The notes under the pieces are model-generated. The model had not been told where the DNA came from. It saw nothing but the letters and a program-made list of their open reading frames with translations, and ran no database searches. Positions 12,301 through 46,412 of a stretch of DNA of 64,000 nucleotides are shown here, one piece after another. Source of the DNA: Branchiostoma floridae (Eukaryota > Chordata > Leptocardii > Amphioxiformes > Branchiostomatidae). Location of the stretch: contig NC_049984.1 of the NCBI RefSeq assembly GCF_000003815.2, positions 10,231,087 through 10,295,086 of the forward strand, written 5' to 3'. Every line of letters starts with the position of its first letter. The first letter of the stretch is position 1. Made by a program: the position numbers and the translations under genes.

Positions 12301-15300
12301 AAATAGACAGCCTCTACTTGACTTCTTATGGATATGCTTGGTTAAATCATGATCAAATGATGGTCAAATCTAATGCTTAATGATTTATTTACTAGGAGTA
12401 CATTATGTTTAATAGAAATTAAAGTAGCAAGAAATGATCAAATAATCCTTGTCACCACATCACTTTTGGATGAAATAATTGCTCCAAAATATCAGATTTA
12501 TCAGAATAACTAAAGGTGACTTGCATTTTGTACAAGACTTAAAGCAACCACATTTTATATCATGTACACACCCCTGCAGTCGGTTGAGTTCTTGGATCCC
12601 TCAGACAGAGTTGAAGTACCAGCGGGACACTGTTTACACTGGGTTTGCATCTCCTCATCCTGGTACCAGCCCACTGCACATGGCACACACACTGTACCGT
12701 TCCCATATGTACCCACTGGGCAGTTCACTGGAGACAAAGGAAAGCACTGGTTTAGGAGATGACTTGAAGTATTAAACATAGACTATTACTGAATCATATA
12801 TATATGAAAAGCAATTCATGGCCTACATCAAATTAAGCTGCCATTTCTATTGAGTATGGGTAGTTTGAAGAAGAAGAATCAGCTTGTGCCATCTTCCAAT
12901 TTGGTGCAGAAATACATCTGGCATCTGAATGAATGGTAAGAGTACTCCATAAACTTTTATTGCTCTTATGCTGTACTGTGGCTCAGGACATTATGCCTTA
13001 AGCCATTGGGATGGCACGCTTCCATGGTATACTTTACATTAAGGCTTTGAAGTTGAAATGCATCCAGATACGTGATAGCACTGGACATGAAAGGTTTATA
13101 TTGTATCAGTGTTTAAGTCAACAATTTAGAGTATAGTTCAACTTACCACATGATGCTCCAAAGTTCTCAATCTTTGCCAGTTGTCCAGGGGCACAATTCA
13201 GCTCAAACTCGGCCAAGAAGCCTGTGTAGTGCATGGGCTCCAGGGTCTCATTTCCTAGTGGTAAGTCAAATGTCTTGTTCTCCACCTTATCAGCTATCTC
13301 GAAGTACATCTCATCCAATGCAGTAGCAATGGCTGCTTGGTCATGCTGTAAGACATCTCCTCCATCACCAAACACAGCCACAATGACAAAGAAGATCTTG
13401 AGGTTTGCTTGTTGTTCGGTCTGTCTTTTCACAATTCTGTGGTCATCTGCCCTTGTTCTTATCCTGTCATCACTGACATCCCTTCGTCTTCTAAAAGTCA
13501 CTCCACACTCAACCTGAGCAAAACACAAAAAAGAACAAAATTTATTAGATAATCTTTGCTGTGATCATTTTTAAAAGGAGGGATCTTCTGTGACAGTCTA
13601 AGTCGAATTTGAGACCCAACTGGTATAAAATGCTGGCAATGTAATTGATAACTTAACGCAAATCTTTTAGGAAAAACTGAACAACCAATGATACATTCCT
13701 CAAAGTTTGCATAAAATTTGAAATGATTTCAATGGCTACATATACAAACATCACAAGGAGCTAAAAATGAATTAGCATAAAGAGGATCTACCTCAATATC
13801 AGTCACATTACAGGTGATAGCAGGGTTGACAGCACTGCAGTCACTACTAGTTAGAGTGTTGTACAGCTGAAGGAAACCCTGTTTGATCTCCTCAATGTTT
13901 TCCTCACAGTTACCATGGTAGTAGTACAGGTCATTCTTCTGGGTCGCCCTTCCAGGTCTCACACGGCCTGCAACATCAGATTAGTCTGAGTTGATTCCAC
14001 AGAATAAAGTAGAAAACAAAAGCCTTGCAAGAAATCAAAATCAATGCAAACATTTTTTTCATGTTCCAGTACAACAGCTAGTGACATCTTCAACTCACCT
14101 GAACAGTCTGGCCAGGGAAATGGAGACCCATGCCAGTTTCCACTGTAGTCACACTTGTACTCATCTGCTGGGATCACAGCAAAGTCATATCTAGTGAACA
14201 GGATAACATAATGTTAATGTTACACCTTTATATCTAGATTTTGATATCGTGATGATATCTAGTTCCAAATCATTATTTCAAATTAAGGCCAAGTTTGTTA
14301 AATACGAAAACTGTATAAATCTTCTGTATAAATCTTCCATTCTTCCCTTTTTCCCAAGCTTAATAGTTAGATACACCCTTATATACATGCTGGTTCCTGA
14401 CTTTCCAATATATATATATGTTTATCAGTGACTTGTATGCACATGCACATGTACCAAGACTGTTACCTCTCATTGCAGCGCACAGTGCAGTACTGCTGGA
14501 AGTTTGGGATGGATCCACAAACTGCTACCCCATTCTGAGGTGGGGCAGGAGCCTCACATGCAGGTGCTGGAACAAAAAATGTTAAAGGTTAAGATGTTTT
14601 CAGATCAACGTCGTACAATCAACACTCACATAAAATANNNNNNNNNNNNNNNNNNNNNNNNNNNNNNNNNNNNNNNNNNNNNNNNNNNNNNNNNNNNNNN
14701 NNNNNNNNNNNNNNNNNNNNNNNNNNNNNNNNNNNNNATCCTAATCGATATCAGCCGTACAGCTTTGACTGTGAGATTGGCAGTCCTATATGAGATTGGC
14801 AGTCTCTGCCACATAGGGCACATCTGTAGAGGGTACATGTACAATGTAGTTGTGAGAAGAACTTAGCCGTACTTACGAAGGAGAGTGATGGTGAATTTAC
14901 AGCGGCTGTTGCGTGGGAAGTTCTGAGCCCAGCAGTAGACATTGTGGGACCCCAGACTGACTGTCTGTCCCTGGTTAGCCGTGCACTCCACTGGGACTGA
15001 CTGGTTGTTGTCATCCACATACACAGGGTCTGTCCAGGTCAGGGTATGGCCAGAAGCTGACTGTACTGTAACCTCCATGTTGTCAGGGCAGGACAGCAGG
15101 GTGGGTGGCTTGTCATCTGTGGAGGGAGTAAATGTGAGTCAGATAAAGACAATGTAATGTAGAACTGTTTAATACTTGTAATGTTAGGGTGATTTTTGAC
15201 ACATTCCACCAGTGCTTTGAATTATTTTTGTATCATGCACATGATAGAGAATCTGATATACTTGTACTACATAGTTGCTGGATGTCAAGCATTGATTATA

Positions 15301-18300
15301 TTTCTCAAATATAAGTAATGCAATCTATATATGATATCTTTAAAAATGGATTTAAAGAGGATAAAACATGGGTCACCTTCCAGAGGTTGAGTACATAAGA
15401 CTTATCTTTGACAAAAAAATGATGACCAGTTTGTTACAAGATCAGTAAACTTACTCTCCACACGGATGTGACGTTGACACTGTGATGTTAAACCATACGT
15501 ATCAGTGGCGCTATAGACCAGCACATGGACTCCGACATCAAAGTGGTATGGATTAGGGTGGTTGGGGTGGACCGTGTAGCTGGGTACAGTGCCGTCGTTG
15601 TCTGTCAAAGTGGTCGGACGTACCACCCAGTGGATCAGGGTGGAGTTCATCCCAGGGTCAGAGTAGGTCAGGATGTCTGGAGGGCACACAAGTGTGGGGG
15701 TCTGGACATCTGCAAGGAAAAATGAGATCATACAGCTCTTAGTCTTGTCTGATATTTTGTCCTCTAGTAGTATGCCAGAATATATAAGAACAATTCACCT
15801 TTATTTGCTTGTGTTGCCAAGAACTAAAAATTCTCACTTTGAGTCTGAAATGAAATATTCACCTGTGCAGGTGAGTGTGCTGCCATAGTGGCTCCACCTG
15901 TCTCCTGTTCCACAGGTTTGCACAGCAGCGCCCCCTCTCAGCTCAAACCCTTCACTGCAGTTGACGTTGCACTGAGTGCCATGAGGATGTTTCCTGTAGC
16001 CACATTCTGGAGGAGACACACTCGCAAAGGCAGGGACCTCTAGGTTGGGGCATTCCACGGCTACAGAGGAAAGGTAGAGGTGTAAGTGCTCAGGAAACCC
16101 ACACACTGAATCATGATTGGTCACAGTAGCAGAACAAACTTCAGCTTACCACCAAACCTCATCTATTTCATACTATTCAACAAGATTTTTCCTTTACGAC
16201 ATTTATGCTGAGCTCAGCACAGTGTATATGTTTACAGGGTATGTCTAGTAATGAACCTTGAAAGAAAAAAGAAAAAAGCTTACATTTGCAGTAAGTGGTG
16301 GCCCTTGCTCCACTCCACAAGCCATTTTTCAGACAGGTCCTGAAAGTGTCAAAGATGGGAGTCCTGCCAACATCACACATGATCTCCAGGGTAGAGTTGT
16401 AGGTGTAGGGACCACTGGCACTGTGGTTGTACACCAGTGTGCTATCACTCACATTGGGATATGGTCCACAGGTCACAACTAGATGGAAAAGACAAAGTGT
16501 GCTACAGTCAGAGTCTGGTCCAGAGCTTAAAGGGTAACAAAAACTGAATAAATTGTTCACTACATGTATGTAGAAACAACTGTCAACTACTAATTATCAA
16601 TTTTTTCATCGTATATTAGAGAAAGATACATGCTGTGCAAGAAAAAGAAGAAAGAGGACAGCAGTTTCGTTTCTGGCCTACCTTTCTTGAAGACTTCAGA
16701 GGAAAAGGAAGCAGAACAATGATGAAAGAGAAGTGAGAGACATTTAGGATCTTGGGAACATTGGAAGGAAAATTTTCAAAAATCACACTGAGACAGTCAC
16801 TATTAACCTTACCAAAATTGATGGAATTCTTCTACAAGAAAGTAAGAAGTGTCTAAATATGGTCTAGTTACATAGACACAATTTTTTCTTGATATATTTC
16901 TTACCATTGCAGGTTGGAAGAGTGCCCTCCCACACGAAGGAGGAGTTGCAGTACAGACTGTGTTCCCCCGATGCCCTGTAGCCGGTATCACACGTGATGT
17001 AACAGGTGTTCCCAGGTGTGTTCTTACACTGCTGCATCCCAACCACATTGTAATCCACATCTCCAACAACCCTGCCGTTCACATGAACCATCGAGGCATG
17101 CTGGACTGCTGGGAGCATGGGACAGCTCCTCGCTGAAAATTGAAAGAGTATGGTTGATTTTAACGATTAAAGATGGCATGCTAGATTAATGGTGTATTTA
17201 TGGAATATATTTGAGCTCAGTAAAGCTACCAATACAACAATTGAAAAGATACAACCATCTGCTTCAGCCATTTTGATCATTTCATCTTCTTCATTTCATT
17301 TGATGAGATATTCCAACAACCCTGACTATCCCAGTTATGACTTATTTAGAAGTTTGTCGAAAATATCCCAATTTGCAAGGCTAATGTTGTTAAAAATAGG
17401 AGTGTCTGATTCCTCCCTACCAATTTAAGGCTATTTATGGGAACCAAAACACACAGGCTTTAGTGTGTTATCTTGATTTCATGGTACATTTGTTCTCACT
17501 TGTTTTCTACTTGGGTGTGAAATCACTTCCAGCTGAGCCTAGCACTTTAGAGGTACTCTAACACAGGTTAGCTGCCAGATGGTTTTTATCAAAACCACTG
17601 TGCCTTGGAATCAAGAGCTTCTCAGGAGCTACATGTAGCCTGGCTTCAAAGGAATATGTAAAAGCACCTTATGTGATAGTTACAAAGCTAAGGTTTCCAA
17701 GCAAGTGATTCCTATTACCAGTATATGTTTAATATTTCTTACAAATGCCTCTGTACATTCTTTGCTACCCACACAATTTTACAGCAAATTAAAAGCAGGA
17801 CTACGGTAGAGATGGCCATGAATAACTTCATATTTTCATATACGTCTTTTGTTTTGTTTTGAACTTGAATTGAATGAAATTGAATTCAATTTCAATTGAA
17901 TTGTAAAATTCACAAAAGGTCTCATCTTTTGTAGAGAAAAAAGTCTGGTTTAACAACAGTTTCTTAAACAAATGTTGTCATCATCCTGTCAAATGTAGTT
18001 AAAGTGTTGTGATGACATCTCACCAGCACATGTCCCGTTCCTTTCCTCCATCCCATCCCCACAGACACAATGGTCCCTTCTGGTGGCTCCTGTACCCACG
18101 GTGGTCGTCCCCTCTGGACAGGTGGTACAGTCCGTAGGGCTCAGGGTGTCTTTGTAGGTTCCCACAGGGCATGCTGTACAAGTAGAAAGCAGTGTGACAC
18201 TTACACCTCAGGTTCAATGATATTCAAGCAGTTATTGTTGAAGAATTTCTCCAAAATAGATTTGTCTAACATTGATGAATTTTAGTCATTTTGTACTAGT

Positions 18301-21300
18301 TTAGTTCCAATCCTATTAGGCTACCACTGGATGGTAGAAATGCTATATGTCACATGAGACACCTGTCATAGGAACTATCAGCTTAAGCTTCCTGTGGGGA
18401 AAATGCTGGACATTTGATTCATCAAGTGAACACAAATTCTGCAAAAAATGCCATTGGTAATGCATAGGCCTGTTCATGTTGTCTCACCTATCAAAAATGT
18501 CATATGCTCATATACAATGCAACCACAGCCTCCATCCTCTCGGCTACAGGGCAAAGCATATTGAAGGTCTTTCCTCTTGTGACCCATTATACTGTATAAC
18601 CACATCCTTCCATACCTGATACGCTCCTGGTTAATACCTACCTGTAACATCACCTCTGAGGTTTCCTCACTTAATCCATGTCAACTTCCTCCTGTGTATG
18701 TTCTGTGACATTGTGGTATAGCTACCTTTTGCACACTATACACCCCATGCCTCACTAATTGGCTGAGTATTCCACACAGATGATAATATTCTCAAACAAA
18801 TTTAAGGATATAGCTAAATTCTTTTACACAACCAGTTAATACTCACATTTTCTTGAAATTATTTTTGGAAACTTAAGGATGGCATGCTAGCTCACCAGCA
18901 TTCAGTTTAGAAGAAAATTCAGTGGTTGCAATAGATTGTGACCTTTCTTGCCAGAAACACTCCTGAGTTTCGTCACATTATTGACAAATGTGTATACGTA
19001 ATATTGAACATTTAGCCATCCCCTTTGCTGACTGCATGTTGTCCTATTGACACATCAGCAGTGTATAAAGCAGTAGTAGCATTATTTACCTGTGCACAGG
19101 TGTCCATCTCCCCCGTATCCCTCCTCACAGGAACATGTGGCATAGCCAGACTTGGAGGGGCAGGAGCAGGTGGAGTGAGAGCCACAGTTGAAGTCACAGT
19201 AGGACCTGTCCGTCACAGACCAGGACTCCTCCTGTTGGTCTGGAAAACAGTAAGGAAAAAAATGTTTCCAAAAGGCTACATCTGCTTGACTGTAGGTCGT
19301 GTTAGACTTTCTGAATTATAGTGTACACATGAAATTCTTTTCAATATACTATATGTCCAGGGCTCGAAATTCATTTTTGGGATTAGGTGCACCGGTGCAC
19401 CCAGCTTAAAGAATTGGGTGCACCAAAAAAGTGTTGGGTGCACCACTTGAATTTAAGTAATAACCTAATATCAAATTCTTAAACAAGTACCGTGACAGAC
19501 ATTTTTATTATCTTTCTAATGCTTGGATGTCAAGAATTTTACATACATTTTATACCTTTACATACATAAACCTAAGAAAATATTTGGGTGCACCCACAGA
19601 AAATAATTGGGTGCACAGCTCCAATTTTGGGTGCACCTGGGTGCACATGCACCCAGTATTTCAACCCCTGATGTCTAAAGGAAAGAGTCAGAGTTTTCAT
19701 CAGAATATTTTTATTTTATTTCCAACAGGTGGTTGCTAAAAAAACACTAGAATATGATATGATATGAATGATTACAGTATATGCAGTCAGAATCAATTCT
19801 TCATGTTGAGTCATAACTTCTTTATCAGACCTTAATCATTAGTTGCTTAGTTACCAACAAAACGGCAACAAACCGTTTCACTTGGGGACTAGTGAACAGG
19901 GCATTAGTAGACAATGGGCAGGTAGTATTTGTATTGTATCTCTGTGTATCCATTTGAGGGATCTGGGATCTTATGTTGACAGTAAAGTAATGTTGAGACA
20001 TCACAGTATATTTACAGTGGAAGCCTTTTGTCTTTTCTTTTTTATGCCTCAATCACTCTTTTGACAAGGTTCTTTCCAAGAATCCAAGCAGTAAAAATGT
20101 GCAGATTAGTTTTTTTGGGATCACCTCGAATTTTTTTTATGACTGCAAGTCCCTGCAATGTCAATGAAGCACTGTTTTGCCATGGATGCTTAGATTGTGT
20201 TGACACAAGGATGTGCTTACGACAGTCAGCTGTTCCAAGTGCATGTTGTAGACTCATTAAGCAACATTCTTTGGACTGTATATGATACTGTAATGCCTAA
20301 TGAGCTTCCTAACAAACACACAACAAATTATTCCAGTTGTTTACAAAATGTTGATGTTGAAATCTGAAGTGTGGGAATGTACGTTGCTGTACCACACACA
20401 ATATAAATAACCCATGCCCTTATATGGACACAGGTGCCCAAACATATGCAAGAGCATGACCTCACTCTATAGAACAGGCTTCGTCCGGAAAGAAAGTATT
20501 TGCATGACAAAAGGTGACCTGTGACGCTTTTGTCCGTCCTTCCGTGCTAGGTAGGGCCAGGAAGACTGAATGATCCAATAGAAACTTAACTGATTTCAGT
20601 TCCTCTTTCTAAAGATGCTAAGTAAATATATCATTCTAACAGTTTCTGAGCCAAGTAAAGCACTACCTCTTTTGATTAATGTGAGGCTAAATCTTTTATA
20701 ATATTGAGATCCAACCCCCATCAACACTACAAAGAAAATCGACAAAAACAAATTTGAAACCTTTTTGTCTGGTGATTCAACTTGTCAGTGAACGTTTTCA
20801 ATAACCGCCATCTCACATTATGTCACAAACTTTGTTGACGTTATAATATGGAAATTACAAGTCATAAACAACTTCTTGTAATACAATGTTAACAGATGGA
20901 CGTTTAGCTTGTTCTTCAGAGCACAAATACTAGTTAGGATCAAGATATACCAGTCACTGTTTGTTTTGTTCCCACCACTTGGCCCAGGTGTGTCATACAT
21001 TCAACAGTGTCTGCATCTTTTCCTGCGCATTCTTGACCGGTCTACCTGACACGCAGAACCTTGGGACGCACTCTAAACATCGTGCCATGTAATCCTGGGG
21101 GCCTTTTTGAGTCACCTCCTCAATAATGCATGATCGTATCAAGTCTAACTGTGTCATCGGATACAGCTGGTATTTGCACTATGTGTTGGCTAAATTCAAT
21201 GGAAAGGCCAATGTAACTACCCGGGGACAAAATACTGCTTTTAGAATTCTTAGTTCAACAGTTTGCACGTTTTCAGTAGAATTCTGGGCTGTAGAGGACT

Positions 21301-24200: not shown

Positions 24201-24287
24201 TTTGAACGTTAATCCTCTGTCGTCTGCAGAATCTAACCGATCGCTTGAAGACGTTTCCTCAATAGTTCTTCTTGTCTGACAGATTTA

Positions 24288-25227
24288 CGACCAACTTCTA
24301 TGAAAGGTCCCTTTGACTCCTGAAAAAAATGAACACACAAAGTAAAGTGAGCAGTTGTTTGCTGAGCTGTTCAGGACGGAAATGCCGGAGAGGTAACACT
24401 GCGTTAGACGACTTGCTCCCAGCAACACACGTCCATCGTCCCGCGCAGGTACTAGTACATAATACACCGTGAAAAATCGTTTCTATCCACCACAAAGACA
24501 TCAACACACACCATTCGTAACCCTTACCCTCTAGTAACCGTCCGCCTAGCAATGCTGGTACTTCTGATGAAGAGGTCACGGAAATAATAACAGAAATATT
24601 TCAGGTGGGCCTTGTGATGACTAAGCCTCCCCCTCTATATTTGGGCAACACGTAGTCTCGTCATACCTGAGCGGTCTCACCTTCGGTAGTCATTACGTAT
24701 GACTGGTTCCCGTGCTCTGATTGGAGCGACCCATGCCTTCGGGCCAACTTGCAAGACTGCGCATTCTTTCTCACTGTTGTGTCCAAATCCTTTGGGTCAA
24801 CTGCGATCACCATATTCGATTCTCATGTAAAGTAGGACAAGTATTGAGTGAGAACAAGAGGATACAACTTCGGAAACGTATTTTTCTATCGTCGTTCTGT
24901 GCGCTTTAAAAGTGTCCCTTTGTCCAGGACACTGGTAATGCTGTCTATGGATTATCCAAATCTTCAGTACGTTATTTTAAAATTTTTACAACGAACAAAA
25001 TAAACTCTTATTGTATTCTTGATGTTACGCCCTGAGAGCGAGTCACCATTGTTTGAACAAGGTCTGTGATTGGCTAGGATGATCCCGGGAAATACCCCCG
25101 CGGCGGTTTCCGATGACGTCAATACAGGGCGTGTCCGCTGGCAGACAGGTGTTTCTTCCTATTCGACATATAAGGCAATGGTTCCAGGTAGCTTGTATTG
25201 TTTTGCGTACAGGTGTGATTTCGTTTA
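24288..25227. other. Intergenic DNA upstream of gene 1
   Basis: This stretch should include the 5' UTR and promoter of gene 1 on the minus strand, but I cannot place a start site. A consensus CRE, TGACGTCA, lies at 25114-25121, and an ATTGG (inverted CCAAT) at 25069-25073. Neither is close enough to a known start to assign. No reading frame here is convincing. Confidence 0.4.
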
Positions 25228-26282: not shown

Positions 26283-26451
26283 TTAAGGATGAATGATATC
26301 TTGTGCGTGATGACCCTAAAAGAAAATTGTTTTCTTTTAGAGAGCCGCAAACAAAATTTGTTACATACGCCTCATAACCCATATTGTGCTACATGTATGT
26401 TATGCTATGCGCTATGTTATTCAACAGGTTACGATTAATGAATGCCTAGGT

Positions 26452-28848: not shown

Positions 28849-28920
28849 TGAAGTACAGTAGAAGCAAGACTCCTAGCTAGCGAAAGTTACCAGGATTTAA
28901 CTGACCAAGCTTCGAGCAAA

Positions 28921-29008
28921 ATGCGTCGTGGAGGCGTCACACGCAGTCCGCTTGGGTTGCCCATGACATGCGTCGTTGTTTTCTTACTCTTTGCGGTTGA
29001 GAAACTTG
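28921..29008 (+). CDS. Gene 2 exon 1: start and signal peptide
   Basis: Residues 1-29. [12 protein letters not shown] is basic and polar and is followed by the hydrophobic core [12 protein letters not shown], a standard secretory signal. The donor TTG|GTGAGT closes the exon in phase 1 and joins DASLLVTNG, the first strand of propeller 1. Confidence 0.8.
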
Positions 29009-35000: not shown

Positions 35001-38000
35001 GTATAAACAGAGTCTTCCTGAATGGGACAGGCTCAGAGGTGTTCCTGGACAGCACAAATGGGATTGCATCAGTAGAAGGTATAGGATATGCTTCAAATTT
35101 CCTATGTTCCAGTATACAAAATATTAATCAAACTATTCCTGAGGAGAGTGTGTGCCTCCATGATGCTAATATAGCACTAGATAGTTATTAAGGATAATAG
35201 AATATTCTTCAATAAGTGACTCTTGGAAACACGTAAAACACGTATCTCCAAATTTTCGATGTCTGCTCAGTACATCTTGATCAGGGAATGACCTAGTCTA
35301 GCAAAATAATGAGACTAGATCCAAGACTTGCGTGACTTGCAGCCCCCCAAATCCTAAGCCAATCATAGAACTCCCACCCCCACCTCTTTGCGGAGTAGGG
35401 GAAGGTAGGACTTGGTCAGCTCCCAGCCATTATAAGAAGGTGAACTGAAGTTTTCCCCATTGTCTACACAGGTCTTGCAGTTGACTGGCAGAATCAACGG
35501 CTGTATTTCTCCAACCTGGGCCTGCACTACACAGGTGTGAGCTGGGGGAGGGTGGAGATGGTGGGGCTGGACAGGACAGGACACCGACGACTGCTGGAGG
35601 AACGTGTACAGAAGCCAAGATCCATAGCACTGGACCTGGAGGCCAGGTAGGCGCAGAAAAGTCTTCAACATCAGCATTTACTGTAAATGCATTTAAGTTC
35701 ACGAGGATTTGATTTCGCAGTGGCGGGAAAAAGGACTTTTCGCGGTTGCTTTAAGTTTGTGGTAACACCATAGACTGCAGTCTAATACCATAATAGAAAA
35801 ATGTTCGCGGTGGTTTTAAGTTCGCGGTGAAGTGGTCACCACAAAAACTACGAATCCACCGTGAACATTTCTGCATTTACAGTACTTTTTCAGCTGTATT
35901 TGAGTAGAAGCAGTACTTTATTTAGTTGTGTCTAAAACTTGCTTTTGTGATGGATGTTCCATTATCAAGTCTCAAAGTCAATGGAAAAGACTTTTTCGAC
36001 AATAGGGACTTTTGATATTCCATTGAAATAAATGAAATGTTAAGCTGAAATGTTGAACTAAAAACTTTCTTAAGTTCCAATGAATAAAGACACAAGCAGG
36101 GTACTAGAAACCCCAATTTTGTGCTTTTCTTTCCTTTGCCAGACACATGTACATCACAGATTGGGGTGAAGAGCCTAAGATCTTGAGGGCAGACCTGGAT
36201 GGCAGAAATCCCCAGACTGTTGTGTCATCAGAGATGGAGAACCCCAATGGCCTGGCCATCGGTGATGGCAAACTGTACTGGGTCGACTCGCATGTGAAAA
36301 GTGGGGAGAACAGCACAGGAACCATGGAACAGGCAGAACTGGACGGGAGCAACAGGGCTGTACTGATGCAGGATTTACCCTTTCAAGTAAGTAAAAAAAT
36401 CATGAAACAATAAGTCTAGTTCTAGTAGGAGGATAATCACCTGGGACAGGACCAGTGTTAAGTCAGTGGGAGGATAATCAGTGTCTATGTGAATACAGCA
36501 CCAGGGACAGGACCAGTGTGAAGTCTGTAGAAGGATAATCAGTGTGAATGTGAGTTCAGCACCAGGGACAGGACCAGTGTGAAGTCAGTAGGAGGATGAT
36601 CAGTGTGAATGTGAGTTCAGCACCAGGGACAGGAACAGTGTGAAGTCAGTAGGAGGAGAATCAGTGTGAATGTGAGTTCAGCACCAGGGACAGGACCAGT
36701 GTGAAGTCAGTAGGAGGATGATCAGTGTGAATGTGAGTTCAGCACCAAGGACGTAGTTATGGCAGTATGCTTTTGAAGTGCAATGTAATGTTAGCTAATG
36801 CAAATGTCACTGGTTTATTGCAGATCCCCTTTGGCCTGGCCATGCATGGTGACAGCCTGTACTGGACAGACTGGGGAGAGGATGGGACAGGTGCTCTGTT
36901 CCAGGGAGACAGGGGGACAGGGGACCATCATGTGGTGGTGGGAGGACTGGGAGACCCCATGGCTGTGACTGTCTGTAACAAGTCATACACCACTCCTGAT
37001 GGTGTGTGGGGTCAGGTTTACATTTGTAGATATCCTAAGTAGATTGTATGCATCTAAATGTGACAAAATGTTCAACATACATGTAATGATAACTATTGTC
37101 TTTCTTTTTTTCAGAGCCCAGCCCGTGTGCAGGACAAGACTGTAGCCACATCTGTGTCCCCACTGCTGGGTCCTACAGATGTTTATGCCCTGATGTTGGA
37201 GGTTTGGTGCTTGGAAGTGATGGCAAATCTTGTATTGGTAAGTCTACTACATGTGTATTAAAGGGAAAGTTCAGTTAGCTAATGTTTCTTAGACTAGTGG
37301 TGACAATTTAAGGTCACAGAAGTGACCCATCATCCCTGAGGGTAGACTTCATTTATTGCATGGCTCATATGTAGTCTTAGTTATCATCCAGCATGACTAA
37401 GCTTGTACCTCGTATTAGCTGAAATGAAGTTCTCTTGGACAAAGGCTGTGTTATTTCTTGCATGGATATTCCAATCTTACAGTCTCGCAAAAAGGGTTAT
37501 CGCAAAAAAATGTATGATAAATATTGTAATGAGTAAACATTTAAAAATCATATTTTGCGACCTCTCCCTTCAGCACCAGAACAGTTTCTCCTGGTTGCTG
37601 ACTTGACAGAGATCCGCATGGTTTCCATGGACACCCCTGACAGATATCCCTACCCCATCGTCCAAGTTCACGACCTCTACAGCAACATCGCGGCTGTGTC
37701 CTACGACACAGAGTCCCAGATGGTGTACTTCAGTGACGTGGGGTGTCGGTCCATCCTCAGGGCCTTCCTGAATGGCACAGGGCTGGAGGTGGTGTACAGT
37801 GACACAGGTGTGTCGGACGGGATGACCATTGATCCTGTGCACAGGTACCTGTACTGGACGGATGGGGAGAGGGGAACCATTGAGAGGATGGCACTTGATG
37901 GTGGTGAGGAGACTCACGAAGTCCTGCTACAGGGGCTGGATAGGCCGAGAGCCATTGTGGTGGTTCCAGCAAATAAGTAAGTACTTTAAATGTTGAAATT

Positions 38001-41000
38001 TTGCAGTGATCTCTTCTCCACAAACTTAAAACCACCAAAAACTGCTTGCTCCACCTGTCTAACCCATTGTTTCATGTGCAAACAAACCACAACAAATACC
38101 CCATCTTCTAACTACAGCAAAATCAAATCCCTTTTGGCTGGACTTTCTTTGATTAGTAAATGACAGATGAATACAACTGTTACAACTTTTCTATTGTCTT
38201 AAATTTTCTATCATTGGAATGTTGAAATCATTTAGAGAGGCACACAGTATGATTATAGAGCTCTGCCTGTTGTTGGTTCATGAGGTGTAGGTAAAGTGCA
38301 CATATCCTTCATTGACACTATCTGTCTTCTTTGTAGCTACATGTACTGGACTGAGTGGGGTGAGAGTCCAGCTGTGAAGCGGGCATCCATGGAGGTGAAT
38401 GCCACAGATGTGCAGAGCCTGGTGGAAGGGGACCTGGTCTGGCCAAATGGACTTGTCGTCGATGACGAGGACAGCAGACTCTACATCGGGGAAGGCAACA
38501 ATACCAAGATAGAAGCAGCACAGTTGGATGGTAAGTTCAAAGGCCTAAAGCACAAAATGTGCACAGATTGGTTTGCACATTTGTTCACCTTTATCAGAAA
38601 CAAGTACAATATGACTTCCCAATAAAAGTGTCATTCTTCATCAGTGACCTGTTTTATGTAATTTATTGCTGTCATTGGTAACAGGGTCAGAAGTAGATGC
38701 CAAAAGTATGATAGAAACATTTTTGTACAATTCTATAAACAGTGAGCAGATAATTATTGGACTGAGCATAGCACTTTGGACTTGCTTTTGACTGTTTACA
38801 GCTTAAAGGTATTTTTTAGAAAAATGTCTCTGTTACACAGTGGATTATTATCACCCTTAGCGGGGGTCTTCATGCATCATCGATACTGGAAAAAAATTGA
38901 AGATTTGTGGGTAAATTACAAGATGTTTTGAGACAATCTTGACATCTTTTGAGACAATCTTGAGATTGCTCGAAGCAATCTTGAGAGTTTTCATAACAAT
39001 CTTAAGATCTTTAAAAAAATGTCAAGATTCTTTGAAGTGATCTCAAGATTTTTTCATACATCTCAATACATGGGTCCTGACTTTAAAGCATGTTTTAAAA
39101 TATCTTGAGATTTTTGCAAAGCATCTTAAGATTTTTCTAAAACATGAAAAACGTGAAGACCCCTGCTAAGGTTCATTTTTATTTGTTGAGTACCAGATCA
39201 GAGAAGTTACTCACAAAATATCAGACATAACATTTATAGTATTAAGCTATAAAAACCTACAGGTATGTCAGTGCAAAGTGCTCTGCCCACCAATAATAAT
39301 CTGTTCGCTGTTTATAACATTCAGTCTGTTAGCAGGTTTTGTGTGCATAAATGCCTCAAGGATGACATACATGCTTTAATTTCTGTTTTCAGGTTCAGAT
39401 CGGAATGTAATCTTGGATGAAAGCAGTGGCCACGTGTACGGGCTGGCTAAGGTTGGGGATGTCCTACTGTGGAGTGACTGGGCAGAACAAAGTGTTAAGA
39501 TGATGACTCTAGGCAGTGGTGTAGTACAGGTTCTCACAGCTGGGCTCATCAGGCCAAGTGAACTACATGTGTGCCATCACTCCAACTTCACTGACCAACC
39601 ATGGCCCATTGTCTCGACAACACCTGTACAGCTTATTGCAACCACTGTTGTTACAACTACCCCAAATCCTACAACAAGTTTTAACTACGCAACCAGTGAG
39701 GAACCAATCACGGTGACCACTGATGTGCAAACGGCCTCAGGTATACGTACCACAGATGTGCCTACCACCACAGATGTGCCTACAACCACAGATGTGCCTA
39801 CCACCACAATGGTCACAGCCACAGATGTGCCTACTACCACAGATGTCCTGACCACCACAGATGTGCCTACCACCACAGATGTGCCTACAACCACAGATGT
39901 GCCTACCACCACAATGGTCACAGCCACAGATGTGCCTACTACCACAGATGTCCTGACCACCACAGATGTGCCTACCACTACAGCAGTACCTATCACCACA
40001 GAGGTACCTACCATTTCAGATGTGCCAACCACTACAGAGGTGCCTACTACTACAGAAGATGTGTCTACCACCACAGAGGTGCCTACCACCACAGATGTGC
40101 CTACCACCACAGAGGTACCTACCACCACAGAGGCGCCTACCACCACAGAGGCGCCTACCACCACAGAGGCGTCTACCACCACAGATGTGCCTACCACCAC
40201 AGATGTGCCTACTACCACAGATGTGCCTACCACCACAGAGGTACCTACCACCACAGATGTGCCTACCACCACAGAGGCGTCTACCACCACAGATGTCCTG
40301 ACCACCACAGATGTGCCTACCACCACAGATGTGTCTACCACCACAAAAATGGATACCACTACACAGCCATTCACATGTGTGAAAGGAGGTAAATAAAGTT
40401 TATCCTGCTAGCTAGACAATAATGCAAAGATTACAGCAGGCCTACCAGACTTTTTTCTGAGGAATGTAACCGGGGAGGTGCCCTAAGATGGTACCCCCTA
40501 AGATGGCACAAATTTTTTGATCTTATTAAAGTACACTGCATTTGTTGCCACTGACCTTGCTGATTAGATAGGTATGCACACAGCTGTTATTTGCATTCGA
40601 AATATACTTAAGTATATTCACTTCATGTTTTTTTTAAAAACAGAATTCTAACAATAATGTTGGTAGTGATGATAACTGCTTAACTGCCTCTGTGTATTGG
40701 CGGCTCGTGCCGCTAACTACATGTATACAAACTCTATGCGTGAAAATTCATGCCATGTTAGAACACCTCCCATTGATTCTTAAAACTTTTGTATATTACA
40801 AAACATGTTCAGGACTCTAAAACAACAGTGAAACCATTGTGGTGTCAGCTAACAAAGGCTTTGAGACAAATTTCAAAACTGTTGAAAGATGATATTCAGC
40901 TGGTGTCACTACCTACATTTGTACTAAGTGAAAGAAACATGAAATGTAACCTTTGGGGAATGCATCATAACATTGGACAATGCATGATTGATTATATATG

Positions 41001-44000
41001 GGGATCATTCTTTGTAACTTTGCTGATTCTTCATTTTACTTTGCATGGTAACACTGTTGAAATGTTTTTGTTGTTGCCTGACATTTTTCTTTTATTAATT
41101 CACAGCAAGCTATCCCTGTTTTGTGAAATGTCAAGCCATCACATTGGATCTTCCGTCCACTTCCTCCTCCGTAACAGTAGACTTCAGCCAATATGTGGTG
41201 GCAAGAGATGAAAATGGTGACCTGTTGACTGATGTCAGTAACAACCTACCAGATGGTGGGACTTACACAAGTACAACATTCAATGCTGAGGACGGTAGCT
41301 TGCAGTTTTCAAATGGCTCCAGCTATTTCCTATTTGGCACTTACCTATTTGTGTCGGATGGCAATATCTGCGGTGTCAACATACAACTCCATGGTGAGTA
41401 ACTTCAAAACAACCAGTCTTTTTCTTGTCATTTGTCAATTTTCTGTTTAAAAAAGAAGTTTTGGCTTGTAGCAAGCAGTCCATTAGGGTGGAAACAGTTT
41501 ACATGGCTAGCTGGAAATGTTATAATAATAACTAAAGATTATTGCGAATTCTTGACTGTGGGCTAATTGCACGTAACATGATAGGCTCAAACAGTGTAAA
41601 AAAACAATATAGCAAGTGTCTACTCTAGTCTAAAAGCTAACTCTAGATTCTGAGTTATTGGGTTTGACTAATCTTTTTCAGAGACAGTGGAAGACGAATG
41701 GTCCCGCATTTTCTACTAGCTTTCATGTGTGGGTTTTGTGATGTTAGAAGGAGAATTGCTTTCTTATATGACTTTGTGCATTTAGTTTCGTTTTCTAAAT
41801 CTGAAAATTCCTTTGTCATTGTCCATATGCAACTTTATACAATTTTCAAGTGACCTTAAGTTGAGAAAGCTTCCCCTGTGCTGTTCTAGTGAATTTGAAA
41901 AGATGTTATGTGATTGTATCAAGTCCTTCCTTTTAAAAGTCTGTTTGATCTTCTTTTCCTCTTTTCAGATGTGTCACCACCTGTTGCTACATCCTGCCCC
42001 AATGAACCAATTGATATCCAAGCTTTACCTGGGTCTGAATCTTGTGCTGGAGTAGATGTGAACCTACTCCCAGAACTGAAAAACAATTGTAGTGCATTAT
42101 GGTTTCAGGACAATGTGAAAGTTACAAAATGCATTGACAATGTTGAGAGTCTCACTGAAATCAGCATTGGTGATGAAGTGGCCATCCAGTGGACAGCAGA
42201 AGATGACAGTACTCATTCATCAGAGCCATGCAACACCACAATTCGCTGTGTGGCTCCAGGTGAGAAATATTTCAGATAGAACATGTTTCTTTCCTCAGAG
42301 ATGAACTAATAGTCTTCTGTCTCACTGAGATTGGACTGTATACTTGTCATGAAAGTGTGCCTATTGACTTGCAAAGGAAAATTGAGAGCAGCTGAAGTAA
42401 AAAGTGCACCAACTCATGAAAATTTTTGCATGATCTCCCAAATACACATGCAATCCATTTTGGTTTGTTAGCTTATTTGCGGAAAAGTATTCTTATATAC
42501 TTGTACTTAAATAGGTCTCTTGATATAAAGCAATAAAGGCTTGCACCAATGGTATCTCTCCCATCTATCAATTTCTGCTTTAAATGTTCTCAGTTACGTC
42601 CACTGTTTAGTTCTGTCAGTTAATCCGGAGATTATTTGTATTTCCTAAGTGGCTGGTTGGGTTAGTCATCAAATATTTACTCCAGGTGTGTTTTTTACCT
42701 TTACTTGATAACGTTTCGATTTTTATTGTTATCAATATTTTTTCCTTTTTCAGCATGTGACCCTCCAACATATGCCCCCAGATGTGGTATCTTGGCATGT
42801 GTCTGGACAAAGAATGAAGATCAAAAGTGTACCTCTTTCTGCAAAGAAGAATGTAGAAGCATTGGTCGAATCTATCACTTCAGCGAGAGAATGGGTAAAG
42901 CTGACCTGGAAGTACTACATGATAAAAGCCATACATTCACCTGTGAGCTTGGCCTATGGAAACCAAACTTCCTCAACAATAATAAATTCCTGAATAATTA
43001 TTGCTGTAAGTATGAACTTTTTGACATTAACAAGTGATCTTAATAGTGTCCAAACTGTAGCTCTGATGCTGTGGGACGTCAAAGTTTCTGCTAACCCATC
43101 TAATTGTCAGTGTAAGCAAAGAGCAATTTACCAATCCCATGTTAAAAAGACTGTCCTTTAAGCCCCGGTTACACATATATAGACTGTGAAACGGCTGTGA
43201 AACAGCTCTTGAATGCTAGCCAACTAAGGTTGGCAATAGTCATGAAGTCTTTTTGGCCATGCCAATCTTTTAGCTCTGTAATTAATAACAATTAGTCCAG
43301 AACATGTCGTGAACATGTCCCAACTAGTAAATGAATTCTCCCAAGCGAGCTTCAAATGCTAACCTTAACTCCCAATATCCCAACCTCTAGCTTCAGACTG
43401 CCGAGTGACCCTCCTGACTGATTCCCAACCCTTCCACCCGAATTAAATTGAGAAAAAGCAGCAATTTTTATGAAAAGAGATAGAACTTTAAACAGAATGA
43501 TTCATACTTTTATGTGGTAAGCTAGGATTCTTCTGTATTTTAGGCTGCATGTCGTTCAGGTCAAGGCCAGGGGTGGTTGGTGCACATTCTGGTAGCTGTT
43601 CATCTTGGTTGAGATTAAGTTTAAACTTAGCAAAAATCTTTCTAAGTATCTGGGGCAAGCTGTAGGCAGATTGGGAACCTAAGTTAGGAGTAAGTCAGCA
43701 GTACAGTGGTTATGCCGTGGTTATGGGTGAAATTTGACTGCTGACTAATATTCCTGAACACCAGCCAAACACCAGCCAATCAATTCCAGACTCCTGTCCA
43801 CAGCTGAATGATTTGAAAATTCCAAAACATTTGGCTGGCACAGCCGGTGAAGCACAGGCCAACTGAGCCCAACACCAGCCGACTGAGCCAAATGTCAGGC
43901 AACCATCTTCCGAATCACTTAGGAGGCCGTGAGGCCATGTTTCAGGCTATGTGTATAACCCAGGCTAAGGACTGCATGTTGCAGATTTACTATAATCTTA

Positions 44001-46412
44001 TTAGCAATATGTTGCACAATGTTTCTCTCCATGCACAGATTTGGCTCTGAATGTTTTTGACAATTTCAGCCAGTGGACATGAAGAAAACGGTGCAAGATA
44101 GAAAACATGAAACAATGCCCCCCAAAATGTCAAAACAGCCAGAGCCAAACCTGAGACTGTTTGGAGAGTAGCAGAACATCATGTTGTAATTCCGGCCAAA
44201 TGTGGGTACAGAAGTTAGATGATTGATATGTTTGTTTTTTTTTCTCTCCTGTAGATTTCAGAGATCACGCCACTTGGATATCGTTTGATGTGCGTTTCAA
44301 ATTCAAGCAAAAATGTGTGAAACAAACCATGAACAAGAAACTTATTAATGAAATCAAAGCTGTATTAAACAATCTGTGTAATGATCACTATACATTGTGT
44401 AAATTTGACATTATTTGTGGTGACAATGCTGACACACCAAATCGAAAACGTCGCAGTAGTGACTTATCACTATGGGCCAGTATAAAGATAACTGCAGCTG
44501 AAGACTATGACCCAGCAACAACATTTCAGAAGGTCAACACAACAGTGTACACAACTATAAGCATGATACAGGGGTTAGTGGAGTCTGGTTCTCTGGTCAT
44601 ACCAATCAATGGCACCAACTACACAGCAGACCCCACCTCCTTCACAATTGACTTTGGCAACTGGGGCTGCCCGGAGGGACATATCTTCTATGCTGGAGCA
44701 TGTTGTGAGTACCAGTGTTTGTTTTCTAAAATGAAATTGTAAGTGTTTATGAAGGTTAGACATCCAGGTAAACAATATTCAAATTTTTAAGCGACGCTGA
44801 AGAAGAGTGTCACTCAAAACATCTGGAAGTAAATCTCCCTTTTTTTATCCAGTTGTAGGGATTGAATTGTATTTGAAAATTGTAAGTGCTCCTTTCAAAT
44901 TATATACTACGACCATAAAGTAACATTTATTAAGTAATACATGAGGATATGAAAATTAGTATCCCCTCATAAAAAATGTTTCACTATATCTAGGTTCTCT
45001 TTCCACATGTTAGGGAGAGGTTGTTAGTGTAACAGTAGTGCTATTAAATGTAAACAGAATAGCAACTTACACAATCGTGCATCTCTTTCAGACCCATGTT
45101 TGGAGGGAAGCCACTACATTGGCATCGACAGTGAGTGTCCCAGCTGCCCAGAAGGCACATACCAGAACAAGACTGGACAGATGACCTGTAAGCCATGTCC
45201 TGATGGAAAGTCAACCAACGGCACTGGGGCAACCAGTGAGGATGAATGTCGAGGTACGTGCCGTTAAAATGACAATTTGGCTAACATATCTACAGTTACT
45301 GCTTTTGTGGCTAACATACAGTTACTGCTTTTGAGGATGCAACGTTAAGTCAGAGGTGTAACTGTACATGTCAACATCATGTCACTTTTGTTTTGGTATG
45401 TTATGACATCAATCTGGTCTTGTCAATCAAGTTCAACCAAGACAAAGTTTTCACAAGCAGTGAACCTCATACCAACTTAAAATGGTTTTTGATACTTTAT
45501 AATAAATTTGATTTTTTTTTCTTGATTTTTAAGCTACAGACATCTTGTCATGCTTTCAAATGTAGTAAAGCTAGAAATAAGGCCAATGGGTCATTTATTG
45601 TGATCTGACTGACTGATTTTATAAAAAGCTTAGGATTTGTATAATTCTCTCTAGGGATTAAAAAGTCATTATTAGATTTAAGAATCATGAAGAACACTCA
45701 GGCTTTTGCACATTCTTCTAATCATGAGTTCCTCTGGAAGTTTCTTTTTTAAATTCACTGACATGCATGACAGCCTTCCCCTTGCAGAGATATCAAACAA
45801 ACTACTGTACTATTTCATGTTTCAAAATAAAATTTGATGTATAATGAAATTTAGGACATGATTATGAACTGAAAAGATAAGGAGAATATGATTATTTTTC
45901 TTTGTCCTTATATGTGTAATAGATTAGACAGCTGTCTGAGTTGTAAATGTTTATTTTCACATTTATTCCGTCCGGTTGATGCAGGACCACAGGACAGCAC
46001 CTTTCATCTTCCACCTGAAGTATTCCTCGCAGTTGGCTTCATCTGCTGGCTCGCTGTAGTGGCTGGAGTTGTACTAGGTGTGAATCGCTACTGCAAGAAG
46101 AGAAAGTCTGATAAGGTAACCAAGGTGAAGCCATTTGTAGACAAGGCTGACATACAGCAGATTATTGGAAGTGATGAGTTTGGTTTCCCTAAAGACCTAA
46201 AGGCAAAATCGGATAGGATTATCATTCCAGCACACTGGTCCAAACAGAGAATATCAGCATGGGATTCCTATTGCAAGGACCCAAAGGGGTGTCCAATGGA
46301 TGCCAGTTTTGTAATGTTACCAAGTACAACTATCCCACCTAAGGGAGAAGTGCGTGACAAGGGCATACTTCCCCCACAGGTACCCAACATGATTGTAGAG
46401 TCAGATTGTTAG
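28921..46412 (+). CDS. Three-propeller LRP-like type I membrane protein with mucin stalk and SVEP1-like HYR/sushi/GCC2 block
   Basis: Twenty-two exons joined by splice sites and phase give 5436 nt, 1811 codons plus stop. Exons: 28921-29008, 29334-29416, 30234-30363, 31245-31413, 32110-32238, 33135-33400, 33778-33909, 34398-34543, 34970-35078, 35472-35646, 36143-36386, 36824-37001, 37115-37237, 37574-37976, 38337-38530, 39393-40388, 41106-41393, 41969-42259, 42754-43005, 44255-44704, 45092-45253, 45985-46412. The N-terminal half resembles LRP5/6-type receptors (propeller-EGF-propeller-EGF-propeller) but lacks LDLR class A repeats. The C-terminal half is a Thr-rich stalk, two HYR-like modules, a sushi-like module, an unnamed module and one GCC2 before a single helix. 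An in-frame TGA at 28849 with no intervening ATG supports the start, which has A at -3. I know no named gene with this architecture. The ligand is unknown; propellers of this class bind protein ligands such as Wnt antagonists or laminin. Confidence 0.87.
29334..33400 (+). CDS. Gene 2 exons 2-6: first YWTD (LDLR class B) beta-propeller
   Basis: Residues about 30-289. Blade motifs in order are LLVTN, LLYYTN, LVYWTD, YLFWGN, RLFWVE and ILYYTS, six in all as expected for a closed propeller. Each repeat carries the LDG or equivalent turn (GVDGSD, GDGANR, RLDGSD, NLDGTN) and the G[IL]AVD strand (IALAVD-like, GIAVDP). Exons have mixed phases, unlike the shuffled modules downstream. Confidence 0.88.
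29417..31244 (+). other. Gene 2 introns 2-3
   Basis: Two introns (29417-30233 and 30364-31244) around exon 3. I find no other gene or clear repeat ends; frames inside have no domain. Confidence 0.6.
31617..31681. repeat. Near-perfect 30 bp inverted repeat (hairpin)
   Basis: Arms 31617-31646 and 31652-31681 match at 29 of 30 positions around a 5 base loop. The outer arm reads CGACGGACGGTGGTTT. Short further matches (TATCAA) extend the arms. It lies in gene 2 intron 4 and may be a fold-back MITE remnant. Confidence 0.85.
33717..33747. repeat. Dispersed repeat end, inverted copy at 44754-44784
   Basis: These 31 bases, containing TTTACCTGGATGTCTAACC, are the exact reverse complement of 44754-44784. 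Just before them CCAGTTGTAGAGATTGAAT also recurs, in direct orientation, near 44851. Both copies are in introns of gene 2, so they are probably termini of one transposon family. Confidence 0.75.
33778..33909 (+). CDS. Gene 2 exon 7: EGF-like module after propeller 1
   Basis: A phase 1-1 exon of 132 nt, residues 289-332. It reads [14 protein letters not shown], then [12 protein letters not shown] and ends NKTCA. This is the LRP-type EGF (C-x-x-NGxCSHLC) that packs under a YWTD propeller. Confidence 0.88.
33985..34286. repeat. MITE-like repeat with GGTACC-type ends
   Basis: In gene 2 intron 7 the sequence opens TAGGGGTGGGTACCGATAC and closes with an imperfect inverse (ACCAGCCCTA). The interior has overlapping GGACCT and AACCTG units at about 34040-34085. 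No coding capacity is seen. Confidence 0.5.
34398..37001 (+). CDS. Gene 2 exons 8-12: second YWTD beta-propeller
   Basis: Residues about 333-616. The domain starts [17 protein letters not shown], as LRP propellers do after an EGF. Blade motifs are [26 protein letters not shown] and SLYWTDWG, plus the opening strand, making six. Repeat turns include ELDGSN and DLDGRN. The intron between exons 11 and 12 holds a minisatellite. Confidence 0.88.
35679..35884. repeat. MITE-like element with TACTGTAAATGCA ends
   Basis: A 206 bp segment in gene 2 intron 10 starts TACTGTAAATGCA and ends with its exact inverse TGCATTTACAGTA. Between them are repeated TTCGCGGT and TTTAAGTT blocks. No coding frame. It is a short non-autonomous element. 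Confidence 0.72.
36430..36753 (+). repeat. Minisatellite, 61 bp unit, about five copies
   Basis: The unit contains AATCAGTGTGAATGTGAGTT and CAGCACCAGGGACAGGACCA. Copies 3-5 are nearly identical; the first is shortened and the last is partial. It occupies most of gene 2 intron 11 (36387-36823). Confidence 0.9.
37115..37237 (+). CDS. Gene 2 exon 13: EGF-like module after propeller 2
   Basis: A phase 1-1 exon of 123 nt, residues 617-657. It reads [16 protein letters not shown], then [14 protein letters not shown] and KSC, the LRP-type EGF pattern. Confidence 0.88.
37574..39610 (+). CDS. Gene 2 exons 14-16 (first part): third YWTD beta-propeller
   Basis: Residues about 658-929. It begins [16 protein letters not shown]; blades are [26 protein letters not shown] and VLLWSDW, plus the opening strand. 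The closing strand runs [15 protein letters not shown]. Normally an EGF would follow; here the same exon runs straight into the Thr-rich stalk, so the third EGF is missing. Confidence 0.85.
38855..39171. repeat. MITE-like element with CCTTAGC ends
   Basis: A 317 bp segment in gene 2 intron 15. The left end CCTTAGCGGGGGTCTTCATG and the right end, inverse of CCTTAGCAGGGGTCTTCACG, match at 18 of 20. The interior is built from CAATCTTGAGAT-like units, some inverted. No coding capacity. Confidence 0.75.
39393..40388 (+). CDS. Gene 2 exon 16: end of propeller 3 and Thr-rich mucin-like stalk
   Basis: A 996 nt exon. From about 39747 to 40352 (residues near 975-1177) it codes for about thirty copies of TTTDVP and variants ([18 protein letters not shown]), an 18 nt repeat. 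A 105 nt higher-order unit that includes [11 protein letters not shown] occurs twice in succession (from 39801 and from 39906). Dense Thr and Pro predict heavy O-glycosylation and an extended rod. The repeat leaves an open frame on the other strand (39685-40374), which is a shadow. Confidence 0.88.
40389..41105 (+). other. Gene 2 intron 16
   Basis: AT-rich intron between the mucin exon and the first HYR-like exon. A frame running through its end (40789-41211) is intronic plus shadow. No repeat ends recognised. Confidence 0.6.
41106..42259 (+). CDS. Gene 2 exons 17-18: two HYR-like modules
   Basis: Exons 41106-41393 and 41969-42259, both phase 1-1, encode residues 1189-1284 and 1285-1381. The second is the clearer: [11 protein letters not shown] at its start and [17 protein letters not shown] near its end match HYR strands. 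The first is diverged ([12 protein letters not shown] ... [18 protein letters not shown]) but has the same size and order. I call them HYR with good and moderate support respectively. Confidence 0.68.
42754..43005 (+). CDS. Gene 2 exon 19: sushi-like cysteine-rich module
   Basis: A phase 1-1 exon of 252 nt, residues 1382-1465. It starts [15 protein letters not shown], has CTSFCKEEC in the middle and [11 protein letters not shown] near the end. The order Cys, CxxxC, FxC-x-x-G-x-W recalls a sushi module with extra cysteines and ends CC over the splice. It aligns with the fourth sushi of gene 1, which is split there by an intron. Confidence 0.65.
43006..44254 (+). other. Gene 2 intron 19
   Basis: A 1.25 kb intron between the sushi-like exon and the unnamed-module exon. 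Short repeated words such as CAACACCAGCC occur near 43760-43890, but I could not delimit an element. No gene seen. Confidence 0.55.
44255..44704 (+). CDS. Gene 2 exon 20: unnamed module with furin-like site, homologous to gene 1 exons 11-12
   Basis: A phase 1-1 exon of 450 nt, residues 1466-1615. Order of landmarks: a helical segment ([16 protein letters not shown]), CKFDIICGD, the basic site NRKRRSSD, a hydrophobic strand LWASIKI, a second helical segment ([11 protein letters not shown]), then [13 protein letters not shown] and AGACC leading into GCC2. Gene 1 residues 805-985 show the same landmarks in order. RKRR before S fits furin. I know no name for this domain. Confidence 0.75.
45092..45253 (+). 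CDS. Gene 2 exon 21: GCC2/GCC3 module
   Basis: A phase 1-1 exon of 162 nt, residues 1616-1669. It reads [17 protein letters not shown], then [14 protein letters not shown] and DEC, the ephrin-receptor-like cysteine pattern. Gene 1 has three of these at the equivalent place. Confidence 0.85.
45254..45984 (+). other. Gene 2 intron 21
   Basis: AT-rich intron before the transmembrane exon; nothing recognised apart from a short duplicated stretch (TACAGTTACTGCTTTTG, near 45290-45340). Confidence 0.55.
45985..46412 (+). CDS. Gene 2 exon 22: transmembrane helix, cytoplasmic tail and stop
   Basis: Residues 1670-1811. After PPEV comes the 21-residue helix [21 protein letters not shown] (about 1682-1702), split here only in description, followed by the basic NRYCKKRK. 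The 109-residue tail has no known domain and, unlike gene 1, few tyrosines. It contains [12 protein letters not shown] and [16 protein letters not shown], which do not resemble LRP5/6 PPPSP repeats, so Wnt co-receptor signalling is not suggested. The frame ends TGT-TAG at 46412. Confidence 0.85.

Follow-up and report, generated by a model that had tools for sequence, protein, structure and literature searches.

A shared HYR-HYR-sushi-U-GCC2 block in two head-to-head lancelet genes and its relatives across the genome

Two divergent genes and their modules

The window analysed here is the whole stretch of 64,000 nucleotides at C6:10231087-10295086, read on the forward strand, of a genome assembly of 513.4 Mb in 431 contigs. 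It contains two genes, here termed gene 1 and gene 2 (Table 1). The first exon of gene 1, on the minus strand, is at 23396-24200 and that of gene 2, on the plus strand, is at 28921-29008; the two predicted start codons are approximately 4.7 kb apart. Gene models were built from open frames, splice scores and a codon/splice-site dynamic programme, and the final sites were chosen by hand. The open reading frames inspected in the window and at later loci were filtered on length and on number of cysteines, and Pfam domains in the window genes were called at a cut-off of E 0.05.

An initial annotation of this DNA described the genes as adjacent and head to head, and as sharing a run of HYR, HYR, sushi, an unnamed module (U) and GCC2 at residues 576-1037 of gene 1 and 1189-1669 of gene 2. 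The gene models are divergent as described and reproduce these residue numbers. They also agree with the intron phases reported, i.e. five phase 1-1 exons in gene 2, and an extra phase 2 intron in the sushi and phase 0 intron in the U of gene 1. It should be pointed out that the pattern in gene 2 depends on the splice sites chosen: the U donor at 44704 scores 3.7, below the 4.2 of a phase 2 donor at 44738.

Table 1. Genes and modules in the window, and related genes elsewhere in the genome (window positions unless a contig is given)
Feature	Position	Strand	Remarks
Gene 1, SVEP1-type	2661..24200	-	exon models; Pfam VWA, Sushi (2 stretches), HYR, Ephrin_rec_like, EGF, Pentaxin
Gene 1, module order	2661..24200	-	vWA, EGF-like, GCC2, sushi x3, HYR x2, sushi, U, GCC2 x3, EGFs, pentraxin, EGF array, SEA-like stretch, TM, tail (EGF array, SEA-like stretch and TM by eye)
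Gene 1 EGF array	4832-5902	-	by eye
Gene 1 HYR 1	15455..15709	-	phase 1-1 exon; model and Pfam
Gene 1 HYR 2	14877..15116	-	phase 1-1 exon; model and Pfam
Gene 1 block sushi	14099..14566	-	exons 14467-14566 and 14099-14190 with a phase 2 intron between; own profile, no Pfam call
Gene 1 U module	13147..13967	-	exons 13792-13967 and 13147-13513 with a phase 0 intron between; RRRR at residue 871
Gene 1 first GCC2 (Ephrin_rec_like) after U	12572..12727	-	model and Pfam
Gene 2, YWTD-type	28921..46412	+	exon models; Pfam Ldl_recept_b, FXa_inhibition
Gene 2, module order	28921..46412	+	signal-like N-terminus, YWTD propellers with LDLR-type EGFs, threonine-rich linker, HYR, HYR, sushi, U, GCC2, TM (by eye), tail
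Gene 2 threonine-rich linker	39749-40345	+	tandem 18-base repeats
Gene 2 HYR 1, strongly diverged	41106..41393	+	phase 1-1 exon; HMM-HMM E 1.4e-4 over 34 columns; nearest is a C15 copy
Gene 2 HYR 2, diverged	41969..42259	+	phase 1-1 exon; nearest is a C167 copy, 39% identity over query 7-95
Gene 2 sushi, diverged and enlarged	42754..43005	+	phase 1-1 exon; HMM-HMM via relatives
Gene 2 U module	44255..44704	+	single phase 1-1 exon; RKRR in middle loop
Gene 2 GCC2 (Ephrin_rec_like)	45092..45253	+	phase 1-1 exon; model and Pfam
Gene 3 (L070)	C6, 10.12 Mb	-	YWTD, HYR, HYR, sushi, U, GCC2, TM; one HYR recognised by Pfam
Gene 4	C2, 12.86 Mb		YWTD, EGF, sushi, U, GCC2, TM; weak HYR-profile match (E 4e-3) ahead of the sushi
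Gene 5, SVEP1-type	C6, 10.168-10.184 Mb	+	sushi x3, HYR, HYR, sushi, U, GCC2 x3, EGFs, pentraxin-like stretch, EGFs
C12 YWTD-type copies	C12, 19.60 and 19.55 Mb		YWTD, EGF, threonine-rich stretch, sushi, U, TM, tail
C13 YWTD-type gene	C13, 18.26 Mb	-	YWTD, EGF, alternating sushi/HYR, then sushi-U-GCC2 in the overlapping locus L041; probably a single gene

The vertebrate SVEP1-type protein is secreted. Its domains are listed, in a published account of polydom/SVEP1, as vWA, Eph-like, HYR, thyroglobulin-2-like, EGF, pentraxin and CCP (sushi) (PMC10281526). Gene 1 resembles SVEP1 in having vWA, sushi, two HYR, GCC2, EGF and pentraxin modules in order, a likeness drawn from the domain list. It differs in that there is no long C-terminal sushi array; the model, followed to the stop at 2661, ends in EGFs, a predicted TM segment and a tail. 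Pfam recognises two of the first three sushi modules and misses that of the block, where it finds HYR (two stretches) and Ephrin_rec_like, i.e. GCC2 (three). Upstream of the TM segment is a SEA-like stretch seen by eye (window 3723-4537; GSVIVDF), with no Pfam SEA call, and the predicted cytoplasmic tail (window 2661-3397) appears by eye to have many tyrosines and prolines, which is unusual for a SVEP1-type protein. An assembly gap of 100 N (14638-14737) lies in the interval between HYR 2 and the sushi.

Gene 2 resembles LRP/LDLR proteins in its YWTD propellers, LDLR-type EGF modules, TM segment and tail, with Pfam matches to Ldl_recept_b (E 4e-62) and FXa_inhibition (E 6.1e-15). Unlike these proteins it has no class A ligand-binding repeats (Pfam at E 0.05 on residues 1-928, the block and the tail), carries HYR-HYR-sushi-U-GCC2 beside the membrane, and shows no NPxY by eye in its tail. 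In the gene 2 block, Pfam at E 0.05 finds GCC2 alone and recognises neither HYR nor sushi. One intron (36438-36752) has approximately five copies of a 61-base tandem repeat, some of them with splice-like open stretches.

Homology of the two blocks

The genes show no DNA similarity by blastn at E 0.01. Direct blastp of the two blocks gives a match of the U end plus GCC2 (E 2e-7) and of part of HYR-HYR-sushi (E 7e-5). The two U modules are only 14% identical. The gene 1 U family compared with gene 2 U alone by HMM-HMM gives E 0.0059 (probability 6), and the relatives of gene 2 U compared with gene 1 U alone give E 0.012 (probability 4).

A different picture is obtained through relatives of each module. 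HMM-HMM comparison of the gene 1-type and gene 2-type families gives E 4e-8 (probability 95) for sushi, E 2.2e-6 (probability 89) for HYR2 and E 3.4e-6 (probability 88) for U, the last falling to 2.9e-5 (probability 74) when gene 2 is left out. HYR1 matches weakly, with probability 53, at the E-value and over the short stretch given in Table 1. As background, 14 comparisons across unlike module kinds all give E 0.045 or worse. On the negative side, gene 2-type HYR1 compared with gene 2-type HYR2 gives E 0.48. A U profile that excludes both genes matches gene 1 at 3.9e-22 (other exon 4.2e-13) and gene 2 at 1.6e-6. The sameness of the blocks asserted in the initial annotation is thus found between families, for U, HYR2 and sushi and weakly for HYR1, but not when gene 1 U is set directly against gene 2 U (E 0.31). 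Judged by sequence comparison, the runs of genes 1 and 2 are homologous.

It might be argued that the likeness arose by independent assembly, with common phase 1-1 HYR, sushi and GCC2 modules having come together by chance on two occasions in one and the same order. Each of these modules is common in itself, and most of the exons are symmetrical. However, U, an uncommon module, has sushi before it and GCC2 after it in both gene types, and the U family of one type matches that of the other by HMM-HMM. Chance assembly appears to be the least probable of the explanations considered, and scarcely credible.

Dispersal of U and origin of the shared block

U is found at approximately 47 places on 16 contigs, genes 1 and 2 included, in a hand tally from match tables that takes in several partial matches, some places on small contigs that may be alternative haplotypes, three C12 places (17.47, 17.54 and 17.55 Mb) resting on E 2e-5 to 0.007, and the loci L029-L031, which had E 0.03-0.05 in the gene 1 U search and 7e-12 or better in a later search. 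Among 37 loci inspected, 26 have a U match; of these, 21 have sushi ahead of U and 24 have GCC2 after it, with no departure from this order. These loci are mostly about 3 kb long, and some missing sushi or GCC2 modules reflect locus edges.

The two window genes have different relatives. A search of the genome with gene 1 U gives 34 matches at E 1, of which two are its own exons and one is a GCC2 stretch, and gene 2 is absent; a search with gene 2 U has C12 as the best match, and gene 1 is absent among 38 matches, mostly to the GCC2 part. Gene 1 U is 42-43% identical to C11 copies, 41 and 36% to C4 copies (41% for that at 31.7 Mb) and 31-35% to copies on C180, C10, C19 and C1, among others. Gene 2 U is 20-24% identical to C12 copies and 21% to that of C13. 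Profiles built without genes 1 and 2 behave in the same manner: that from C11, C4, C10, C180, C19 and C1 matches gene 1 at 6e-24 and leaves gene 2 unmatched at E 1, and that from C12 matches gene 2 at 3e-10 and leaves gene 1 unmatched at E 1. Among the copies compared, the closest relatives of gene 2 HYR2 and sushi are C167 copies and that of HYR1 is the C15 copy, and for GCC2, gene 5, gene 3, the second GCC2 of gene 1 and others lie within 0.02 in score. Gene 1 is the nearest relative of no gene 2 module among those copies.

Intron positions differ as well. The phase 2 sushi intron of gene 1 is also present in its C11/C4 kin (L003 shows both halves, L004 and L007 the donor half) and is absent from gene 2. 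The U modules of gene 1 (13513/13792) and gene 3 both have a phase 0 intron, at different positions, and these introns therefore probably had separate origins.

Trees were made from 21, 22 and 23 U modules of the approximately 47 places, the remainder, including two more C12 copies from the YWTD region, being left out; a partial C5 copy (L040) was excluded from both trees and motif counts. In the 21-module tree a branch with 100/100 support separates the gene 1 side (12 rows) from the gene 2 side (9 rows). A clade of gene 1 U with gene 2 U is rejected by the AU test with 21 modules (p 0.00207), with 22, gene 4 being added (p 0.000692), and with 23, gene 5 being added (p 0.0221). In the best trees gene 2 U groups with U modules of YWTD-type genes (support 93/91, 84/81 and 68/85), and in the 22-module tree the six YWTD-type modules form a single clade (84/81). 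Adding rows lowers the support for this clade from 93/91 to 68/85, the 23-module tree carries a long-branch warning, and gene 2 U has a long branch and odd composition in the 21-module tree. A placement of gene 2 anywhere on the gene 1 side is not rejected with 22 modules (p 0.0531) or 23 (p 0.225). Since the sister clade is rejected and the looser placement is not, a copy from gene 1 is rejected, and the deeper position of gene 2 is less sure.

These results bear on the origin proposed in the initial annotation, a local duplication of the gene 1 block into gene 2. The adjacency, head-to-head orientation and identical module order suggest such a duplication, but it is contradicted by the three U trees, by the 14% identity of the two U modules, whereas gene 1 U is 41-43% identical to the copies on C11 and at C4:31.7 Mb, by the absence of DNA similarity and by the sushi intron that gene 1 shares with C11/C4 and not with gene 2. 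In addition, gene 3 has the architecture of gene 2, yet is not adjacent to gene 1. A recent local copy is therefore very improbable. As to the grouping of the gene 2 block with gene 1, its U goes with YWTD-type genes and its HYRs and sushi are nearest to C15 and C167 copies among those compared. The accompanying idea of a SVEP1 core captured by an LRP-like gene survives in part, in that gene 1 is of the SVEP1 type and gene 2 combines an LRP-like YWTD portion with a SVEP1-like core; copying from gene 1 at this locus does not.

By its sequence, gene 2 appears as a member of a family of YWTD-core-TM genes on C2, C6, C12 and probably C13, and, as other such genes exist, it is not a unique fusion. 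Genes 2, 3 and 4 and the C12 copies have a YWTD part and, after it, sushi-U and a TM segment; the HYR pair is found in genes 2 and 3, and no GCC2 was seen on C12. Two C12 relatives (L034 and L037) have NPVY, an LRP-like endocytosis motif, in the tail.

The neighbourhoods of these genes raise the question of an older local event. The order on C6 is gene 3, YWTD-type (-), gene 5, SVEP1-type (+), gene 1, SVEP1-type (-) and gene 2, YWTD-type (+). C13 has a candidate pair, a YWTD-type gene (-; U 18.26 Mb, YWTD 18.27 Mb) and a SVEP1-type gene (+; U 18.314 Mb, pentraxin match 18.320 Mb, E 5e-4). YWTD-type genes near SVEP1-type genes at more than one place exceed what is expected from dispersal alone. 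Because of the second, mirrored pair on C6 and the candidate on C13, an ancient local capture has to be weighed: a SVEP1-type and an LRP-like gene may have lain head to head, with the core copied there and the pair later duplicated, mirrored on C6 and again on C13, so that genes 1 and 2 would be one old pair. The mirrored order and the proximity on C13 fit this, as do the HYRs of gene 1, each nearest to the HYR of gene 5 in the same position among those compared, and the third propeller of gene 2, 51-52% identical to gene 3 (although gene 4 on C2, at 47%, is its best single match). Against it, the U sister pairs expected from a simple recent inverted duplication of the pair are rejected, both gene 1 with gene 5 (p 0.02) and gene 2 with gene 3 (p 0.026). 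The sequence read covers genes 3 and 5 up to a stretch of about 39 kb between them, and the C13 pair up to one of about 45 kb. In addition, no pentraxin or SVEP1-type U match was found within 1 Mb of the YWTD-type genes on C2 and at C12 19.4-19.7 Mb. Ancient local capture is a serious competitor, although a less probable one.

We consider it likely that the block is an old, genome-wide cassette that two gene types inherited separately, that the gene 2 family gained the core before gene 1 left its C11/C4 kin, and that U is probably cleaved. The cassette would be an old extracellular unit, (HYR)-HYR-sushi-U-GCC2, with U at its centre. Gene 1 is a SVEP1-type gene, in this case with a predicted membrane anchor at its end; the YWTD-type, LRP-like family would have acquired the core before gene 1 split from the C11/C4 copies, an age that we infer, and the gene 2 copy would have diverged strongly after uptake. 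For the C15 gene, inspection by eye of open reading frames from 10 kb upstream gave no YWTD but did show other extracellular-looking stretches; hence the cassette has probably moved among gene types. In place of a one-off event between neighbours there is an uncommon module at about 47 places, usually as sushi-U-GCC2 and in two gene types. A literature search for the amphioxus HYR domain with sushi found no paper.

U as a possible cleavage module

U has approximately 150-180 residues and no Pfam model. Its predicted topology is beta-alpha-beta-beta-alpha-beta, with a putative basic convertase-type site in the loop between strands two and three. Of 23 copies, 15 have the motif RX[KR]R in the middle loop and eight lack it, and two motifs lie elsewhere; 14 of 22 modules have it compared with 1.5 expected from shuffles, although the modules are mutually related. 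A single-sequence structure model of gene 2 U is ferredoxin-like, of low confidence (mean pLDDT 57.9). Compared with known structures, this model matches generic ferredoxin-like folds; SEA and Notch HD are not among the 50 matches listed, which carries no weight either way. Among solved structures, gene 1 U has no relative at E 10 and the U profile has four matches at E 0.15 or worse. The second U exon of gene 1 has no tblastn match in prokaryote genome contigs.

In the SEA domain and the Notch heterodimerisation domain (HD), the cleavage site is in the loop between strands two and three of a ferredoxin-like fold. U would resemble these in having a basic site in the same predicted loop of its low-confidence model, and differs in that no sequence match to them was found. 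Cleavage within U is proposed because polydom/SVEP1 is known to be cleaved on secretion, into parts of 115 and 270 kDa in the account cited above (PMC10281526). Gene 1 up to RRRR amounts to 91.9 kDa with 10 sequons. A literature search on the polydom cleavage site or N-terminal fragment gave nothing on polydom among the matches listed. U may be cut inside by a convertase. Most likely this would take place at the basic site in the strand two/three loop during the secretory route, and the cut U would then either keep both chains joined or release them.

U is presumably present in vertebrate SVEP1, to judge from the spacing of its annotation. A further and rather doubtful proposal is that U represents a ferredoxin-like module not described before, which a proprotein convertase cuts between its halves in the manner of Notch HD, that this would explain polydom/SVEP1 processing, and that lancelets have head-to-head gene pairs, one member a matrix-type protein and the other a YWTD receptor, with this core in common and perhaps acting together. 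Polydom/SVEP1 is a vascular disease protein. If U is indeed its cleavage module, the site of processing can be tested directly, and the YWTD-type genes would represent a receptor family built on the same core.

Two C15 loci (L067 and L069) have HYR, HYR, sushi and apparently the first half of U only, followed by a threonine-rich stretch and a TM-like segment. Judging from these loci, the halves of U may be separable.
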